Part shown: in pieces, positions 33,073-40,363 of the stretch
Layout: each line of letters opens with the position of its first letter
How positions within the stretch are numbered: the first letter of the stretch is position 1
Source: Geodermatophilus nigrescens
GTDB lineage: Bacteria > Actinomycetota > Actinomycetes > Mycobacteriales > Geodermatophilaceae
Reading direction: 5' to 3'
Assembly: GCF_900129495.1 (NCBI RefSeq)
Contig: NZ_FQVX01000002.1
Location: 372,001-436,000, forward strand
Length of the DNA stretch: 64,000 nt
Program-made: the position numbers and the translations under genes
Notes under the pieces: model-generated
Told to the model about the DNA's origin: nothing
Database searches by the model: none
Seen by the model: the letters and a program-made list of their open reading frames with translations, nothing else

Positions 33073-34245
33073 GTGCCCGACCCCGCCGCCCTGCACGACC
33101 TCGACGCCGAGGAGACGGCGGTGGTGGAGGTGGTCCGCCGGTTCGTCGACCGGGAGGTGCGCCCCGTCGTCCGCGAGCTCGAGCACTCCGACACCTACCC
33201 GGAGGCGCTGATCGGGCGGATGCGGGAGCTCGGCGTCTTCGGGCTGCTCGTGCCGGAGGAGCACGGGGGGTCCGACGTGTCGGTGCCGTGCTTCGCGGCG
33301 GTCACCGAGGAGCTCGCCCGCGGGTGGATGAGCCTGGCCGGCGCGATGGGCGGGCACACCGTCGTCGCCCGGCTGCTGCTCGCGCACGGCACCGACGAGC
33401 AGCGGGCGCGGTACCTGCCGCGGATGGCGACCGGCGAGCTGCGGGCCACGATGGCGCTCACCGAGCCCGGCGGCGGCTCGGACCTGCAGGCGATGCGCAC
33501 CACCGCGCGGCCCGACGGCGACGAGTGGGTGGTCACCGGGTCGAAGACGTGGATCACCAACGCCCGCCGGTCCGGGCTGGTCGCGCTGCTGTGCCGCACC
33601 GACCCGGACGCGAGCCCGGCGCACCGCGGCATCAGCGTGCTGCTGGTGGAGAAGGGCCCGGGGTTCACCGTCTCCCGCGACCTGCCCAAGCTCGGCTACA
33701 AGGGCGTCGAGAGCTGCGAGCTGTCCTTCGACGGCATGCGGGTGCCCCGCGACGCGGTCCTCGGCGGCGAGCCCGGCCGCGGGTTCGCCCAGATGATGCG
33801 CGGCCTGGAGATCGGCCGGATCCAGGTGGCCGCCCGCGCGCTCGGGGTGGGCCGCGCCGCGCTGGAGGACTCGGTGCGCTACGCGCAGGAGCGGGAGAGC
33901 TTCGGCCGGCCGATCTGGGAGCACCAGTCGGTGGGCAACCTGCTCGCCGACATGGTCACCCGGCTCACCGCCGCCCGGCAGCTGGTGCTCCACGCCGCCC
34001 GCCGCTACGAGGCCGGCGAGCGCGCCGACATGGAGGCCGGGATGGCCAAGCTGTTCGCGTCGGAGACCGCGATGCAGGTGGCGCTCGACGCCGTCCGGGT
34101 GCACGGCGGCTACGGCTACTCCACCGAGTTCGACGTCGAACGCTACTTCCGCGACGCCCCGCTGATGATCGTCGGCGAGGGCACCAACGAGATCCAGCGG
34201 ACCGTCATCGCCCGCGAGCTGGTCCGCCGCTCCCCGCTGCGCTGA
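33073..34245 (+). CDS. acyl-CoA dehydrogenase
   Basis: A 390-residue enzyme with the family order: FVDREVRPVVRELEHSDTYPEALI, MALTEPGGGSDLQAMRTTA (FAD contact), WVVTGSKTWITNA, then GYKGVESCELSFDGMRVP. YAQERESFGRPIWEHQSVGNLLADM follows, and the C-terminal VHGGYGYSTEFDVERYFRDAPLMIVGEGTNEIQR. The catalytic glutamate is expected in GEGTNE. The GTG start at this position was chosen for its GGAGG site six bases upstream; an earlier GTG at 33043 would add ten residues. It probably oxidises short or branched acyl-CoA. Its last 41 bases overlap the end of a minus-strand membrane protein gene. Confidence 0.9.
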   Translation: MPDPAALHDLDAEETAVVEVVRRFVDREVRPVVRELEHSDTYPEALIGRMRELGVFGLLVPEEHGGSDVSVPCFAAVTEELARGWMSLAGAMGGHTVVARLLLAHGTDEQRARYLPRMATGELRATMALTEPGGGSDLQAMRTTARPDGDEWVVTGSKTWITNARRSGLVALLCRTDPDASPAHRGISVLLVEKGPGFTVSRDLPKLGYKGVESCELSFDGMRVPRDAVLGGEPGRGFAQMMRGLEIGRIQVAARALGVGRAALEDSVRYAQERESFGRPIWEHQSVGNLLADMVTRLTAARQLVLHAARRYEAGERADMEAGMAKLFASETAMQVALDAVRVHGGYGYSTEFDVERYFRDAPLMIVGEGTNEIQRTVIARELVRRSPLR

Positions 34246-34660
34246 CCGCCGGACCCGGGCGCCCGGCGAGCAGCGCCATCGCCGCCGCGCACCCCCAGCC
34301 GGCCACGACGACGGGCGTCTCGACCGGGTCCAGGCCGCCCGGGCGGACGCGGGCGCGCACGGACCGCTCGCTCAGGTAGCCCAGCGTCAGGCCGGCGCCG
34401 ATGCGGCGCAGCACCCAGCGCGCCCGGTCGTCCGGCCCGCGCAGCAACCGGGCGATGGCCCACGCCTGCGGCACGAGCAGGTACGGCGGCGCGCTGTAGG
34501 CGGTGCCGAACCACAGCCAGTCGCGCACCAGGTGCCCGGGGCTGCCGGTCAGGAACGGGACGTCGAAGGCGCGCCCGCGCCGCAGCGCGACGGCGTGCCC
34601 GGCCGCCTGGGCGGCGAGCTGCACCGCGGTGACGACGAGGAGCGGGACCGGCTGCGCCAT
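34205..34660 (-). CDS. hypothetical membrane protein
   Basis: A 151-residue product with hydrophobic stretches at about residues 4-27 (PVPLLVVTAVQLAAQAAGHAV), 48-68 (WLWFGTAYSAPPYLLVPQAWA), 86-96 and 115-135 (VVVAGWGCAAAMALLAG). No family is recognised. The motif VRDWLWFGTAYSAPPYLLVPQA might face the membrane interface. The ATG has no strong ribosome site. The 3' end overlaps the acyl-CoA dehydrogenase on the other strand by 41 bases, an antisense overlap that could cause interference between the two messages. The gene lies 29 bases downstream of the 2-oxoglutarate oxygenase operon, stop to start being in the opposite order, so it is a separate unit. Confidence 0.6.
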   Translation of the reverse strand: MAQPVPLLVVTAVQLAAQAAGHAVALRRGRAFDVPFLTGSPGHLVRDWLWFGTAYSAPPYLLVPQAWAIARLLRGPDDRARWVLRRIGAGLTLGYLSERSVRARVRPGGLDPVETPVVVAGWGCAAAMALLAGRPGPAVSAAGSGGPARGR

Positions 34661-34689: not shown

Positions 34690-35736
34690 TCAGGCGCCGC
34701 CCTGCGCCGCGAGCACCCGCGCCGCCTCGCGGGCGGCCTCCGGGTTGGCCACGCCGGCCCGCGAGCCGGCCAGCTTGGCGCGGATGTGCTCGCCGACCGT
34801 GATCGGCGGGTAGGGCGACCCGTCGCCGACGCAGGTGGGCAGCGTCTCGATGACCGCGTCGACGTCGCCGTCGTGGAAGAAGGCGGCGCTGCGCCGGCGG
34901 GCGATCGTGCCGTCGACGATCGGCGGCTTGACCCGGTGCAGGGTCGACATCCAGCGGTCGTTGGTCCAGCGCGCCATGAGGTCGCCGAGGTTGATCAGCA
35001 GGGCGCCGTCGGCGGGCATGACGTCGTGCCAGCCGCCGTCGCGCCCGAGCACCTGCAGGCCGGCCACCTGGTCGGCCCACAGCACCGTGACGATGCCGTA
35101 GTCGGTGTGCTCCCCCATGCCGGTCAGGTCGCCGTCGAGCTCGAGCGCGCCGGGCTCCAGGGCGTAGTTGTTCATCCGCAGGACGTCGAGGCTGTGGCCG
35201 GTGTAGCCGGCGAAGAAGCCGGCCGGCAGGCCGAGGGCGTCGGCGAACAGCGTGGTGAGCGTGCGGGCCACCCGGGCGGCCTCGGCGCAGTACGCCTCCA
35301 CCGCCGGGCGGAACGACGGCGCCTCGGCGGGCCACACGTTCTCCGGGTAGTCGGCCTCGGGCAGGTCCAGCCCCGGGAAGTCGGAGACGGCGGCGCCCAC
35401 GTTGAACGCCTCGAAGAAGTCGTGCATCCGGTTGGCGGGTGCCAGGCCCAGGCTCAGGCTCAGCGACTCCGTCTTGGGCGGGGCGTAGCCGCGGTTGACC
35501 TCCGGCGGCGTCCGGTGGCGCTTCTTCACCTCCAGCGGCAGGCCGAAGAACTCGTCGAGCGCGGCGGCGAAGGCGTCGGTGACCGCCTCGGGCACGCCGT
35601 GGCCGACCACCTGCACGAAGCCCACGGTCCGGGCGGCCTCGTCGAAGGCGGCGGCCGCGGCGGCGCGCTCCTCCGCGGTGCCGCCGCGCACGTAGGGCGA
35701 GACGTCGACGGTCGGGACGGTGAACGGCGTGCTCAT
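34690..35736 (-). CDS. Fe(II)/2-oxoglutarate-dependent oxygenase, isopenicillin N synthase family
   Basis: A 348-residue oxygenase. The N-terminal DIOX_N part has GFVQVVGHGVPEAVTDAFAAALDEFFGLPLEVKKRHR. The iron site is HTDYG plus a distant His in STLHRV, the HxD...H facial triad, and RRRSAAFF supplies the Arg that holds 2-oxoglutarate. Family members hydroxylate, desaturate or demethylate small molecules including modified purines and pyrimidines. The ATG overlaps the stop of the deaminase-like gene by four bases, making this the last gene of a six-gene operon with an NMT1-type ABC importer. The likely role is oxidative attack on the imported compound before or after deamination. Confidence 0.92.
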   Translation of the reverse strand: MSTPFTVPTVDVSPYVRGGTAEERAAAAAAFDEAARTVGFVQVVGHGVPEAVTDAFAAALDEFFGLPLEVKKRHRTPPEVNRGYAPPKTESLSLSLGLAPANRMHDFFEAFNVGAAVSDFPGLDLPEADYPENVWPAEAPSFRPAVEAYCAEAARVARTLTTLFADALGLPAGFFAGYTGHSLDVLRMNNYALEPGALELDGDLTGMGEHTDYGIVTVLWADQVAGLQVLGRDGGWHDVMPADGALLINLGDLMARWTNDRWMSTLHRVKPPIVDGTIARRRSAAFFHDGDVDAVIETLPTCVGDGSPYPPITVGEHIRAKLAGSRAGVANPEAAREAARVLAAQGGA

Positions 35737-36818
35737 GCGGGGTCCTCCTGGGGTGCCGGGGGCGCGTCGGGGGTGACCGCCACCTGCGCCTCGACGCGGG
35801 CGAGGAGGGCGGCCTTGTCGGTGTCGTCGAGCCAGCAGGCCTCGACGGCGTTGCGGGTGAGGTCGGCCAGCCGGTCGCGGCGCCAGCCGAGCGCGTGCGC
35901 GAGGACGCGGTGGTCGTGCGTCGGGTCGGTGCCGAACATCGGCGGGTCGTCGCTGTCGATCGTCACCAGCAGCCCGGCGTCGACCATCTCGGCGATCCGG
36001 CGGTGGCTGCCGTCGCCGCTGCCGGAGTAGCGGCCGATGTCGGAGCTGACCGGGGTGCAGGTGAAGGGCACCCGCTCCTCGACGCAGCGGGCGGTGAGCT
36101 CCGGGTCGTCGACGACGTGGTAGCCGTGGTCGACCCGGCTGCAGCCGAGCTCGTCGAGCAGCACCCGGACGTGGTCCGGCGGCCCGGACTCCGAGTGCGC
36201 GGTGCGCCGCAGGCCCGAGCGCGCGGCGAGCCGGTAGGCCTCGACGAACCGCCCGGGCGGCCCGTTCACCTCCGCGTAGTCCAGGCCGATGCCGAGCACC
36301 TCGTCCACGCGGTGCGCGACCACCTGCTCGACCAGTTCCACGGCCGCCGCACCCGACCGCTCCCGGCAGATGCCGACCAGGAAGCGGGCCTGGATGCCGG
36401 TGTCGGCCTCGGCGTCGCGGGCGCCGGCGAGGACGCCCTCGAGGATCGTCGGGTAGGGCACGCCGGGGTGTCCGGGCGGGCTCAGGTGCACCTCGCGGTG
36501 GAGGACGCCGTGCGCGGCGCCGCCGGCGGTGAGCGACTCGTAGGTCACCCGGGCGAAGTCGTCGGGGTCACGGATGAGCGAGCCGACGACGTCGAGGACG
36601 CGGAGGAACTCCCCGAGGTCCTCGTAGCTGCCGTGCTCGTAGAGCTCCTCGGCCGAGCGGCCGAGCTGCACGCCGTGCTTCCGGGCGAGGTCGAGCACGG
36701 TGCCCGGCGCGACGCTGCCGATGAGGTGGCAGTGCAGGCTGACCTTGGGCAGCGCGGCCACCATGGCGTCGATCGCCGGGTCGGCGGGCGTCGGGGTGGA
36801 GTGCACGGTCAGGGTCAC
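35733..36818 (-). CDS. adenosine-deaminase-like amidohydrolase with altered substrate site
   Basis: A 361-residue TIM-barrel deaminase. The metal-binding His29 and His31 lie in LHCHLIGS. Adenosine deaminases have Asp or Glu where Ile33 stands, contacting the ribose or purine. The proton-donor motif, usually HAGE, reads AHSESG, so His and Glu are one residue closer. RVDHGYHVVDDPEL gives the later His and TIDSDDPPMFG the Asp pair that completes the metal site. The chemistry should still be hydrolytic deamination, but of a substrate other than adenosine. The gene overlaps both neighbours by four bases in an operon with an importer and an oxygenase. The GTG start was chosen by this overlap. Confidence 0.88.
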   Translation of the reverse strand: MTLTVHSTPTPADPAIDAMVAALPKVSLHCHLIGSVAPGTVLDLARKHGVQLGRSAEELYEHGSYEDLGEFLRVLDVVGSLIRDPDDFARVTYESLTAGGAAHGVLHREVHLSPPGHPGVPYPTILEGVLAGARDAEADTGIQARFLVGICRERSGAAAVELVEQVVAHRVDEVLGIGLDYAEVNGPPGRFVEAYRLAARSGLRRTAHSESGPPDHVRVLLDELGCSRVDHGYHVVDDPELTARCVEERVPFTCTPVSSDIGRYSGSGDGSHRRIAEMVDAGLLVTIDSDDPPMFGTDPTHDHRVLAHALGWRRDRLADLTRNAVEACWLDDTDKAALLARVEAQVAVTPDAPPAPQEDPA

Positions 36819-37660
36819 CGGGCGGCCTCCGCGCGGCCGAACCGGCTGAGCACGGCGGCCTCCACGAGCTGCGCGAGCAGGTAGAGCACCAGCGCGGTGA
36901 CCGTGACGACGACGACCAGCGCCCACACCCGGGCGTTCTGCGAGCGGCCGGCCGCCGAGACGACGGCGTAGCCGATGCCCTTGCCGGTGGCCAGCCACTC
37001 GGCGAGCAGGGCGCCGGTGAGCGCGCCGGGCACGGCGATCCGCACCGAGGCGAACAGCGCCGGCAGCGCGGAGGGGAAGCCGACCCGGCGCAGCACCGTC
37101 GACGGCGACCCGCCGTAGACCAGCACCAGGTCGCGCATCTGCGGGGTGACCGAGCGCAGGCCCAGCACGATGTTCACCAGCGCCGGGAACAGCACCACGA
37201 TCGCGCTCATCGTGGCGACGAGGACGTACCCGCGGCCCACGGCGAGGATGAGGATCGGCGCCAGCGCGATGAGCGGGACGGTCTGCAGCACCAGCGCCAC
37301 CGGCATGACCGCGCCCTCCAGCAGCCGGTAGCGCACCACGACCGCGGCCAGCACGACGGCGGACAGCAGCCCCGCCACGAAGCCGACGCCGGCGTCGAGC
37401 AGGGTCTGCCCGAGCAGGGCGCCGATCTCTGCGCGCAGCTCGGCGGAGTCGTCCTCGCCGAACAGCGTCGTCCACACCTCCGCCGGCGTCTTGCCGACGT
37501 AGGGCGAGACGTCGAAGACCCGCAGCAGCACCGTCCACAGCAGGACGACGACGGCGAGCACCAGCACCGCGGTGCCCACCTGGCGCAGCACCGCGCGCAG
37601 CAGCGAGCCGGCCCGCCCGGGCGCGGGCGCCTGACCGGCGCCGGGCAGCACCGCGGTCAC
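36815..37660 (-). CDS. ABC transporter permease
   Basis: A 281-residue inner-membrane permease of the nitrate/taurine/NMT1 type, six predicted helices. A long first helix (about residues 29-50) is followed by a periplasmic loop with SPYVGKTPAEVWTTLFGEDD, then a helix-rich core; the EAA-type loop that meets the ATPase reads LVLVYGGSPSTVLRRVGFPSALPALFASVRIAVPGALTGA. Start and stop overlap the adjacent permease and deaminase genes by four bases. With its partner it forms a heterodimeric channel for the compound captured by the lipoprotein. Confidence 0.9.
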   Translation of the reverse strand: MTAVLPGAGQAPAPGRAGSLLRAVLRQVGTAVLVLAVVVLLWTVLLRVFDVSPYVGKTPAEVWTTLFGEDDSAELRAEIGALLGQTLLDAGVGFVAGLLSAVVLAAVVVRYRLLEGAVMPVALVLQTVPLIALAPILILAVGRGYVLVATMSAIVVLFPALVNIVLGLRSVTPQMRDLVLVYGGSPSTVLRRVGFPSALPALFASVRIAVPGALTGALLAEWLATGKGIGYAVVSAAGRSQNARVWALVVVVTVTALVLYLLAQLVEAAVLSRFGRAEAAR

Positions 37661-38451
37661 GCTGCCGCCCCGCGCGACCACGGGGTGACCAGCCGGCCGA
37701 CCAGCCCGAAGGCGGCGTAGAAGGCGCCGGCCACCAGCGCGCAGCCGATGCCCACCGCCCACGCCTGCTCGACGTCGACGTTCTGCTGGGCGATCTTGAG
37801 CACCAGCGCGACGCCCCGCTGCACGCCGCCGACGTACTCGCCGAGGATCGCGCCGAGGAAGGCCGCCGGCGCCCCGATCCGCAGCGCGGCCAGCAGCGAC
37901 GGCAGCGCGGCGACCGCCTGCACCTTCACCAGCTGGCGCACCCTCCCGCCGCCGAACACGCGGACCACGTCGAGGCTGGCGCGGTCGGCCGAGCGCAGGC
38001 CGAGCACCGCCCCCACCACGGTGGTGAAGAAGACCGACAGGGCCGCGAGCGCGGTGGCCGTGCCCGAGCGCTGCCCCTCGTCGGGGTTGCCGATGACGAT
38101 GAACAGCACCGGCGCGACCGCCACCAGCGGCACGCAGTAGCTCATGACGGCGACCTGCATGAGCACCGGCTCGGCGACCGGCAGCAGCAGCACGAGCGAG
38201 GCGACGACGAGGCCGGCGAGCGTGCCGTAGCCGAACCCGACCGCGGCCTCCTGCAGCGTCATGCCGAAGTGCAGCGACCAGAACCGCCAGCCGCCGTCGA
38301 CCGCCGCGCCGGCCACCCCGCCGGGCGTGGGCACGCGGGCGCCCGACAGCACGGTGACCGCCGCCAGCCACCAGACCGCGAGCAGCGCGGCGATGCCGGC
38401 GGCCCCGGTCAGCAGGGACCGCGCCGGCCCGCGGGCGAGGCTCACGCTCAC
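37657..38451 (-). CDS. ABC transporter permease
   Basis: A 264-residue permease of the same family as the next gene. The N-terminal helix is [20 protein letters not shown] and the ATPase-contact loop reads [48 protein letters not shown]. The GTG start overlaps the ATPase gene's stop by four bases and is translationally coupled. Having two distinct permeases instead of one homodimer is usual in riboflavin- and pyrimidine-precursor uptake systems of the NMT1/THI5 group, which fits the type of binding protein at the head of the operon. Confidence 0.9.
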
Positions 38452-39281
38452 TCGCCCGCCGCCGCGGCGCCGCCGAACAGCAGCTCCGACGCCCGGTCGT
38501 GCAGGGCGTGGAACTCCGGCGTGCGCATCATGTCCGGCGTCCGCGGGCGCGGCAGGTCGACGTCGATGACCTCCTGGACCCGGCCGGGCCGCGCGCTCAT
38601 CACCGCGACCCGGTCGGACAGGAAGACCGCCTCGGAGATGCCGTGGGTGACCATGAGCGTGGTCGCCGGCTTCTCCGTCCAGATCCGCAGCAGCTCGACG
38701 TTCAGCCGCTGCCGGGTCATGTCGTCCAGCGCCCCGAACGGCTCGTCGAGCAGCAGCACCGACGGCCGGACCACCAGCGCGCGGGCGATCGACACGCGCT
38801 GCCGCATGCCGCCGGACAGCTGCGCGGGCTTGGCCTTCTCGAACCCCTCGAGGCCGACCAGCCGGATGAGCTCGGCGACGAGCGCGTCGTCGGGCCGCTG
38901 CCCCGAGACCTCGAACGGCAGCCGGATGTTGGACACCACCGACCGCCAGGGCAGCAGCGCGGAGTCCTGGAAGGCGATGCCGAGGTCGTGGTCGCGGCGC
39001 AGCTGCTGCGGCGTGCGGCCGTCGACCAGCGCCGAGCCCGACGTCGGCTCCTCCAGGCCGGCGAGGATCCGGAGGATCGTGGACTTGCCGCAGCCCGACG
39101 GCCCGAGCAGGGACAGGAAGCTGCCCCGGTCGGTCCACAGGGTGGCGTCCTCCAGGGCCTGCACCGTGCGGCGGCCGGTCCGGAAGGTCTTGGTCAGGTG
39201 GTCGATCCGCACGCCGGTGCCGGTGGAGCCCGCGGCCCCACCGGCACCGGCGCCCGTCGACGTCGTGACGACGTCGGTCAT
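38448..39281 (-). CDS. ABC transporter ATP-binding protein
   Basis: A 277-residue ATPase of the nitrate/sulfonate/NMT1 group. Walker A is [14 protein letters not shown], the Q loop lies in [15 protein letters not shown], the signature is [15 protein letters not shown], Walker B is [16 protein letters not shown] and the switch His is in [14 protein letters not shown]. After the core, a short tail with [15 protein letters not shown] follows. The first 22 residues are Gly/Ala/Thr-rich and probably disordered. It powers the two permeases encoded after it. It starts 23 bases after the stop of the binding-protein gene. Confidence 0.94.
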
Positions 39282-39304
39282 GTCGGGTCTCCCGGACGGG
39301 TCGG

Positions 39305-40363
39305 TCAGGCGGGCAGCTCGGTGAGCTCGGGCTTCTCCTCGAGCAGCTGCTCCAGGAGCGAGAGATCGAAGAGGTCCTCGGCCGCGATGTCGATGCCGGC
39401 GGCCTCGAGCGTGGCCATGTTCTGCTCGATGAGCTCGTCGGTGATCGTGAACAGGCCGTTGGCCTCGACGTCGGGCGTGACGATCAGCCCCGCCTGGACC
39501 TCGGACTGCTCGAGCTCCTTGGCCATGTCCAGCTGCAGGTCCGCGCCGTACTCCTCGACCGCCAGGCGGGCGCCCTCGGCCGGGTCGGCCAGCGCGTCCT
39601 GCCAGCCGCGGATCTCGGCCTCCAGGAAGGCCATCACCCGCTCCGGCTCCTCGGCGATCATCCGGTCGGTGGTGATGACCGACTCGGCGACGAAGGGCAG
39701 CCCGTTGTCGGCGAAGGGCAGGTTGGTGACCTCGATGCCCTGCGACTGCACGGTGATCGACTCGTTGGTCAGGTAGGCGAGGAAGCCGTCGACCTCGCCG
39801 TCGATGAGCGGCGCCGGGTCGTACTCGACCGGCACCTTCTCGACATCGGCCGGATCGATGCCGTTGACCTCGAGCAGGGCGTCGAACAGCGTCTCGTTGC
39901 CGCCGGCCTGCACGCCGATGCGCTTGCCCACGAGGTCCTGCGGCGTCGCGATGTTGCCCCCGTCGGCCAGCGACAGGATGGTGAACGGGTTCTTCTGGAA
40001 CTTCGTGCCGACGATCTTGAGCGGCGCGTCCTCCTCGGCGATCACCTGCGCGGTGGAGACGGCGTTGCTCAGGCCGAAGTCGGCGTCCTCGGTGGCCACC
40101 AGGGTCTCGATCGCGCCGGGGCCGGGGTCCATCGTCACCGAGGTGAACCCCGCGTCGGTGTAGTGCCCGTTGGTGTCGGCGAAGAACTCACCGGCGAACT
40201 CGGCGTTCTTGATCCAGGACAGCTGCAGGGTCAGCTCGCCGAGGTCGCCGCCTCCCTCACCGGCGGCCGCGGCGGGCTCGTCGCCGGACCCGCAGGCGGT
40301 GAGCGCCAGGACGGCGGCGGTCAGCAGGGCTCCGGCGCGTGCGGCGCGGCGGGGAAGGGGCAT
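39305..40363 (-). CDS. NMT1/THI5-type substrate-binding lipoprotein
   Basis: A 352-residue secreted protein. The signal peptide ends in LALTAC, with Cys24 as lipidation site. The domain begins [30 protein letters not shown], the NMT1/THI5-like pattern seen in ThiY and RibY-type proteins for pyrimidine precursors and riboflavin. [21 protein letters not shown] and [16 protein letters not shown] line the cleft between the two lobes. It is the first gene of the operon and would deliver the ligand to the permeases. A nitrogen heterocycle is the likely ligand from the family and from the deaminase and oxygenase encoded downstream, but this is inference. Confidence 0.92.

Follow-up and report, generated by a model that had tools for sequence, protein, structure and literature searches.

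A conserved six-gene actinobacterial operon that most likely imports and degrades an unusual purine base

What compound is taken up and broken down by the six genes that lie in tandem on the minus strand at 34690–40363 of the window, by which we mean the whole 64,000-nucleotide stretch of Geodermatophilus nigrescens DNA analysed here? The genes encode a binding lipoprotein, an ATPase, two permeases, a deaminase-like amidohydrolase and an iron-dependent oxygenase. The initial annotation had read them as an import-plus-catabolism operon for an aminated N-heterocycle, either a purine, a pyrimidine or a cytokinin-like compound, and knew of no named pathway with this set. Our analysis indicates that the operon most likely imports and degrades an unusual purine base, probably one that resembles adenine and carries an alkyl group. 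We hold with good confidence that a purine base is the substrate. The fuller reading, in which an N-alkylated aminopurine (for example, an N-methylated one) is taken up, oxidatively N-dealkylated and deaminated as a source of nitrogen, has in our estimate about an even chance of being right. No named pathway with these genes came to light in the open-licence literature searched, which leaves room for one described elsewhere.

All six genes are complete and free of internal stops. In their order of transcription, 5' to 3', they are as follows.

39305–40363, minus strand: binding lipoprotein (SBP) of the NMT1/THI5 family, 352 aa, ATG start; NMT1 146.9 bits (cut-off 20.5)
38448–39281, minus strand: ATP-binding cassette (ABC) ATPase of the NtrCD/SsuB/TauB-like class, 277 aa, ATG start; ABC_tran 109.6 bits
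37657–38451, minus strand: ABC permease 1, 264 aa, GTG start; BPD_transp_1 45.4 bits (scanned from the second GTG)
36815–37660, minus strand: ABC permease 2, 281 aa, GTG start; BPD_transp_1 79.2 bits
35733–36818, minus strand: deaminase-like amidohydrolase of the adenosine deaminase (ADA) family, 361 aa, GTG start; A_deaminase 208.6 bits, TIGR01430 239.6 bits (cut-off 216.55)
34690–35736, minus strand: 2-oxoglutarate (2OG)/Fe(II) oxygenase, 348 aa, ATG start; DIOX_N 77.9 bits and 2OG-FeII_Oxy 68.7 bits

Gene calls and Pfam/TIGR matches bear out the families that had been named for these six genes. The four-base overlaps said to link them are present at four of the five junctions (ATPase/permease 1, permease 1/permease 2, permease 2/ADA-like and ADA-like/oxygenase), and the SBP and ATPase genes are instead separated by a 23-base gap. 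Against the ntrCD subfamily, the ATPase scores 211.8 bits, under the cut-off of 291.8. The gene upstream of the operon (40675, plus strand) is divergent.

To place the operon among its relatives, genome contigs were scanned with peptide patterns of the window's own deaminase, which gave 69 loci. Four of these (L119, L120, L122 and L124) were dropped for fragmentary deaminase matches, and the remaining 65 yielded 68 deaminase rows, three loci having a second one; with the window, this makes 69 rows. Genes were called by script and neighbours were mapped up to 8.5 kb from the deaminase, with "beside" reserved for gene centres no more than 1.9 kb apart; L101 gave no gene calls, and its context is blank. 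Since many loci are closely related, the neighbourhood counts given below are not independent. All six genes are matched in the same order in 18 other distinct loci. Seventeen of these (L056–L059, L061–L071, L085 and L091) come from Geodermatophilus, Modestobacter, Blastococcus, Nocardioides, Marmoricola and Aeromicrobium, and the 18th (L037) is from the window's genus; L036, L038 and L039, as second copies of L056, L059 and L058, are omitted from the count. In L068 and L069 an extra oxygenase is inserted between permease 2 and the deaminase. This recurrence is more than chance. The importer and both enzymes are thus linked in a conserved way, so that the absence of such linkage, which would have spoken against the initial annotation, is not observed, and its reading of an import-plus-catabolism operon is supported. 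The window deaminase is 89–92% identical to its nearest relatives, in Geodermatophilus. Five of 200 genomes sampled from the order carry the deaminase (E ≤ 1e-60, window's own included), and the same five hold the closest oxygenases (88–100%) and six-gene matches (L036–L039 and the window). A search of plasmids with the deaminase returned 46 records, all below 60% identity, the best listed being 38.8%.

The deaminase itself is distinctive in its active site. Its catalytic loop reads TAHSESGPP, and HCHLIG replaces HxHL(D/E)G. The window and 39 others of the 69 rows read H-SE-(S/T/N)-GPP, with one residue fewer between the third zinc His and the catalytic Glu than in H-AGE, and do not carry the His-x-Gly-Glu catalytic segment of the adenosine deaminase family. 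These 40 rows, here called the SE clade, form one branch (support 100/99) in a tree of 66 deaminase rows, which excluded one fragmentary row and the two remotest ones; the 29 rows outside the clade (27 loci) are referred to as outer rows. Non-SE rows mostly read H-xxE. The sister row of the SE clade, L095 (99/97, on a long branch), reads HQSE, which may be an intermediate. In an alignment of 25 SE and 13 outer rows, the third His, His238 and the Asp-Asp pair are present throughout, and the catalytic Glu is kept in all 25 SE rows. Of the 25 SE rows, 21 show HxH and four are gapped at these columns, and the two His residues of the motif occur in 12 and 13 of the 13 outer rows, respectively; the window protein has HxH, the third His, His238 and Asp-Asp. 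Because the distance to the start of the GPP helix is kept, we think that the Glu of H-SE is still the catalytic acid. Two proteins outside the clade, at L098:8001-9074 and L103:4127-5131, are ADA-like with His in place of Glu (HVAHDGPA and HMAHDGPA); each sits next to two 2OG oxygenases, and a Bmp-type importer and a Rieske protein are encoded close by.

A second position bears on whether the substrate is a base or a nucleoside. Asp19 of adenosine deaminase contacts the ribose O5'. The window has Ile at this position, the 25 aligned SE rows have I in 13, T in 6, L in 2, M in 1 and a gap in 3, and the 13 outer rows have Glu in 12 and M in 1. As the ribose-contacting Asp/Glu is replaced, the substrate appears more likely to be a free base, which may carry a hydrophobic group, than a nucleoside. 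The folds closest to the AlphaFold2 model of the deaminase (pLDDT 92.1) are 4gxw, an uncharacterised cog1816 protein, and the adenine deaminases 3rys (AAur1117) and 3ou8 (P. aeruginosa), with adenosine deaminases ranking behind. With these three the ADA-like protein shares the fold, HxH, the third zinc His, a His238-like residue, Asp-Asp and the base-type GIGLD.E, but it is one residue short between the zinc His and the catalytic Glu, and identity is 30–34%. Where the SE branch has I/T/L/M rather than Asp/Glu after HxHL, 4gxw likewise has Leu. A housekeeping adenosine deaminase is ruled out, as the 4.74 Mb host genome has a separate canonical copy (NF006847 505.5 bits, cut-off 412; HDHLDG, HAGE), which is its only other A_deaminase gene.

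The neighbourhoods of the relatives point to purines. In the SE clade, a xanthine-dehydrogenase-like molybdenum enzyme lies near 11 of the 40 rows (in L062, XdhA 498.7 bits, equivalog cut-off 780), and a CDA-fold deaminase lies near 11 by reference match and 18 by cluster (representatives scanned). Three rows have an amidohydrolase nearest to an 8-oxoguanine-deaminase reference (L075, 529.3 bits against a cut-off of 532; L080, 153.5 bits; and L085), and L080 also encodes an allantoinase (521.5 bits, cut-off 357.85) and an allantoate amidohydrolase (491.4 bits, cut-off 479). Among the 29 outer rows, a Bmp-type importer is near 13, Rieske/VanA_C genes near 10, amidohydrolases nearest the 8-oxoguanine-deaminase reference near 9, and glutathione S-transferase (GST)-like and adenine-deaminase-type genes near 7 each; 14 have no listed neighbour category beyond at most one ABC ATPase. 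The host has clustered genes for urate oxidase, hydroxyisourate hydrolase and OHCU decarboxylase, each over its cut-off, so that the route from urate to allantoin is available. The substrate range first proposed is thus partly supported: it was right in outline and is here narrowed to purines rather than pyrimidines in general, a pyrimidine-only reading being weakened by the purine-catabolic neighbours in relatives.

The SBP has a lipobox-like LTAC at residues 21–24, with Cys24 invariant in 23 aligned sequences, and the folds nearest to its AlphaFold2 model (pLDDT 88.4) are 4nmy (thiamin-bound) and 3ix1 (formylaminopyrimidine-binding), followed by Thi5, with taurine and sulfonate binders lower. 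The score against the aliphatic sulfonate family TIGR01728 is 36.2 bits, well under the cut-off of 163.5, and sulfonate import is ruled out by this score and the lower-ranked folds. The two nearest folds would also suit salvage or degradation of a thiamin-type aminopyrimidine, in which the lipoprotein would bind thiamin or formylaminopyrimidine and both enzymes would remodel the pyrimidine; in addition, the NCS1 permeases of two relatives score weakly as CytX-like (75.2 and 78.6 bits, cut-off 309.85). However, the xanthine-dehydrogenase-like and allantoin-pathway genes of the relatives run counter to this, and no thiamin-biosynthesis family was found among the chosen neighbour proteins that were scanned. 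We regard a thiamin-type substrate as quite unlikely. Within the SE clade, the NMT1 importer is near 22 of the 40 rows and an NCS1 nucleobase permease near 16; the two never occur together and between them cover 38 rows, those with neither being L060 (contig end upstream) and L090. This mutual exclusion suggests that the NMT1 system and the NCS1 permease import the same base.

The importer resembles the ThiXYZ and RibXY systems, which likewise combine an NMT1/THI5-type lipoprotein with ABC subunits. Unlike these, its genes are linked to those of purine-catabolic enzymes, and among the neighbours scanned there was no family of thiamin or riboflavin biosynthesis.

The oxygenase gene is the only DIOX_N gene in the host genome. 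Its metal triad (H210, D212 and H267) and S283 are present in all 35 aligned oxygenase rows, and the 2OG-binding R281 in 29, window included; the other six, all distant second oxygenases, have Leu. These six (L088:7093-7974, L089:3192-4163, L092:7108-7989, L094:7057-7998, L098:6985-8001 and L103:3153-4130) are 31–35% identical, with EELIS in place of R-x-S, and may use another cosubstrate mode. The solved sequences closest to the window oxygenase are 9ovh (128 bits; function by depositors' label) and the fungal thymine hydroxylase 5c3p (107.8 bits). A further match, 6jyv, is probably PA0147 of P. aeruginosa, whose gene would lie next to that of the deaminase PA0148; no weight is placed on it here. 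The substrate pocket of thymine-7-hydroxylase (T7H) is described as Asn87, Glu122, Arg190, Tyr217, Phe292 and Asn294 (PMC4787775), and four of the six residues are kept in the window oxygenase as N81, R187, Y213 and F287. The last two correspond to Tyr217 and Phe292, the aromatics that sandwich the base in T7H. The kept residues would suit a flat heterocycle, without being specific. T7H is a 2OG oxygenase of the same DIOX_N type; the window protein differs from it at the Glu122 and Asn294 equivalents, and in being linked to a purine-type deaminase, with no decarboxylase partner among the six genes.

The enzymes that take its place bear on what the oxygenase might do. Of the 40 SE-clade rows, 28 have a 2OG oxygenase beside the deaminase (in seven of them, two oxygenases flank it), and in eight rows a flavin mononucleotide (FMN) monooxygenase of the NtaA/DmoA/riboflavin-lyase type is found there instead. 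The starred branches of the tree force at least three changes of the FMN label and six of the 2OG label, and the sister pair Nesterenkonia (FMN) and Aeromicrobium (2OG) is supported at 100/99. Because each replaces the other beside the same deaminase, the two kinds of oxygenase likely do the same job. The representative at L073 scores 420.5 bits against TIGR03860 (cut-off 279.7), and its closest solved relatives are the riboflavin lyase RcaE (282.8 bits) and the dimethyl-sulfide monooxygenase DmoA (280.4 bits). NtaA, EmoA and DmoA carry out oxidative C–N or C–S cleavage. RcaE is described as doing the same (PMC12746152). In all six Agreia loci (L073, L074, L076, L077, L078 and L081), the NtaA/DmoA-type monooxygenase adjoins the deaminase, and the pair sits downstream of an NCS1 permease and a CDA-fold deaminase cluster member.

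A third class of oxygenase is seen in the outer rows, where Rieske genes occur within 8.5 kb of the deaminase in 10 of 29 (9 of the 27 outer loci). At L095, three proteins are encoded in a row about 4–6.5 kb from the deaminase and were checked by Pfam: one of 590 aa that joins Rieske and reductase parts, one of 276 aa with VanA_C and no Rieske domain, and one of 215 aa from the GST cluster. L099 has Rieske-only, VanA_C-only and GST-cluster proteins, the Rieske domain being split from the catalytic subunit (by Pfam, in part), and other Rhizobiales loci share these Rieske/GST clusters (by cluster only). In five Rhizobiales loci (L107, L112, L114, L117 and L118), a GMC oxidoreductase and a two-gene thiamin pyrophosphate (TPP) enzyme lie past the adenine-deaminase-type gene and a LysR-type regulator; this split enzyme recalls two-subunit TPP decarboxylases (L107 scanned, the others by cluster).

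As the 2OG, FMN and split Rieske classes all include oxidative C–N or C–S cleavers, dealkylation is favoured. By analogy, all three would be best suited by a reaction that takes an alkyl group off a nitrogen, whether in the ring or exocyclic, a proposal to which we give even weight for and against. The argument is indirect, and the enzyme may instead hydroxylate its substrate without cleaving it. Read from its replacements in this way, the window oxygenase itself stands about a half chance of being a dealkylating enzyme. Hydroxylation of the ring alone would not need an extra oxygenase, since a molybdenum hydroxylase is present in 11 loci.

This last point bears on a simpler account, ordinary purine scavenging, in which the ADA-like protein would be an adenine- or isoguanine-type deaminase and the oxygenase would either hydroxylate a ring carbon, as an alternative xanthine hydroxylase, or act on an unrelated metabolite. 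The adenine deaminases 3rys and 3ou8 are indeed among the closest solved folds, and the purine neighbours in relatives would fit. Yet the short loop marks a separate branch, nearly all other rows having the full-length H-xxE; xanthine-dehydrogenase-type hydroxylases already stand near the oxygenase in 11 of the 40 loci; and the oxygenase is replaced by NtaA/DmoA-type enzymes, for which no hydroxylation of purine ring carbons is known. Ordinary scavenging is an unlikely explanation.

The FMN replacements raise the further possibility of flavin or lumichrome catabolism, given that the L073 representative of the eight best matches riboflavin lyase. The NMT1/THI5-type family of the lipoprotein also includes riboflavin importers. 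The two-gene TPP pair further out in the five Rhizobiales loci is reminiscent of the lumichrome pathway, which includes a two-subunit TPP decarboxylase (PMC12746152). However, RcaE and DmoA score equally, and the TPP pair lies past opposite-strand genes and outside the SE clade. The published pathway, as that paper presents it, also uses P450, Rieske and catechol dioxygenases, and the terms adenosine deaminase and glutarate occur zero times in its text (PMC12746152). The published gene set fits poorly, and we reject flavin catabolism as very improbable.

A further alternative keeps the alkylated purine and changes the chemistry. If the substrate were a cytokinin (N6-isopentenyl- or N6-benzyladenine) or N6-methyladenine, the ADA-like enzyme could strip the N6 amine, leaving the oxygenase to act on the side chain or the released amine. 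The closest fold is a cog1816 protein, and that group is described as including the cytokinin deaminase Patl2390, an amidohydrolase-superfamily enzyme for alkylated purine bases that accepts N6-methyl- and N6,N6-dimethyladenine and not adenine (PMC13296781). Some relatives are named as leaf isolates (Agreia sp. Leaf210 and Leaf283; Marmoricola sp. Leaf446). A direct N6 hydrolase, however, would need no oxygenase, and we consider this route rather unlikely. Patl2390 and NdmH, an N2,N2-dimethylguanine hydrolase homologous to AtzB (PMC13054789), are presented in their reports as hydrolysing directly, without a partner oxygenase, unlike the enzymes of the window operon; NdmH also belongs to a different amidohydrolase branch (AtzB) from the ADA-like protein.

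In the N-dealkylation route that we prefer, the lipoprotein and ABC transporter would import the free base, and the 2OG/Fe(II) oxygenase would hydroxylate the alkyl carbon, which would then leave as an aldehyde. The ADA-like enzyme, probably of base rather than nucleoside type, would hydrolyse the ring amine before or after that step, and the oxopurine product would enter the host's degradation of the purine ring, releasing nitrogen. More tentatively, we propose that the operon represents an undescribed actinobacterial route for N-alkylated aminopurine bases, in which a 2OG/Fe(II) free-base purine N-demethylase, interchanged in evolution with FMN and perhaps NdmCDE-like Rieske demethylases, is built around a new short-loop deaminase subfamily. 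No 2OG/Fe(II) enzyme is known to N-demethylate a free purine base, and this one would be the first of its kind.

Several observations weigh against the dealkylation route. In the window itself, no evident purine gene adjoins the operon, the flanks being acyl-CoA-dehydrogenase-like and MMPL-like (by eye), and the xanthine-dehydrogenase-type gene of the relatives has only 34–37% homologues in the host (molybdenum part), one of them of the carbon monoxide (CO)-dehydrogenase type. The locus sample leans to close relatives because the search patterns came from the window's own deaminase. Two of the T7H pocket positions are changed (Glu122 to N112 and Asn294 to D289). The aromatic pair occurs in 9ovh too, a relative of other label. 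The oxygenase family is broad, occurring in 48 of the 200 sampled genomes of the order (E ≤ 1e-40), and of 20 oxygenase regions fetched from these genomes, 16 lack any ADA-like match; the neighbours of such oxygenases, scanned at few loci, are P450, short-chain dehydrogenase/reductase (SDR), OsmC, enolase-family and FAD-oxidase proteins, contexts so heterogeneous that no substrate clue was gained from them. Four of the 40 SE rows (L079, L080, L086 and L090) have no intact oxygenase beside the deaminase; in L079 an NtaA/DmoA-type gene lies 6.5 kb away, and in L090 the deaminase stands alone amid housekeeping genes. NtaA/DmoA-type and 2OG enzymes also catalyse reactions other than dealkylation. 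Finally, the Rieske genes of the outer loci are mostly 3–7 kb off and not adjacent, and their catalytic parts match SxtT/SxtDIOX first and NdmA/NdmB second, which leaves kinship to NdmC as a possibility.

A known system with the proposed role, N-dealkylation of a purine, is NdmCDE, whose substrate has no exocyclic amine and which is not known to have a deaminase partner. It is reported to N7-demethylate 7-methylxanthine and to have a split layout, with a Rieske oxygenase in parts, a reductase bearing an extra cluster and a GST-like subunit (PMC4408171), similar to that seen near some outer relatives. Its Rieske chemistry is unlike that of the window oxygenase, and scans of the six operon proteins gave no match to Rieske or GST families. 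Mesorhizobium clusters homologous to ndmCDE have been reported without an assigned function (PMC4408171), and the Mesorhizobium loci L112, L114 and L117 set ndmCDE-related genes in a purine context. Methylated and alkylated purines are released by nucleic-acid turnover and by plants, and their bacterial recycling is largely open; a 2026 paper makes this point for E. coli and N6-methylated adenines (PMC13296781). The operon joins a defined importer to a single oxygenase and a single deaminase, so that three purified proteins would make the recycling question testable. The SE clade is, in addition, a natural experiment on how an ADA active site copes with the loss of a residue that separates a zinc ligand from the catalytic acid.

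Some further features of the window and its relatives were noted. Directly downstream of the oxygenase lies one more open frame.

34205–34660, minus strand: open frame of 151 aa; no Pfam match at 1e-5

A frame of the same cluster (c31, five members; L036 is the L056 genome) occupies the same place in Geodermatophilus relatives, and its product may be a small membrane protein. Elsewhere in the host, at G000:C9:226001-239000 (L133), an aerobic CO-dehydrogenase-type molybdenum enzyme (1473.8 bits, cut-off 950) adjoins an NCS2 nucleobase permease, with an FdrA-like protein near. By tblastn, the deaminase-adjacent oxygenase of L086 (Nocardia sp. SYP-A9097) is hit as two separate segments, which may reflect a broken gene or a sequencing error. 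Finally, L045 and L048 hold a different orphan operon, with no deaminase match, in which a relative of the oxygenase (67–68%) accompanies an NMT1 lipoprotein and a regulator of a helix-turn-helix (HTH)-cupin cluster; the scan of L045 also revealed an enolase-superfamily enzyme, fused permeases, an FAD_binding_4 oxidase and a SnoaL-like protein.

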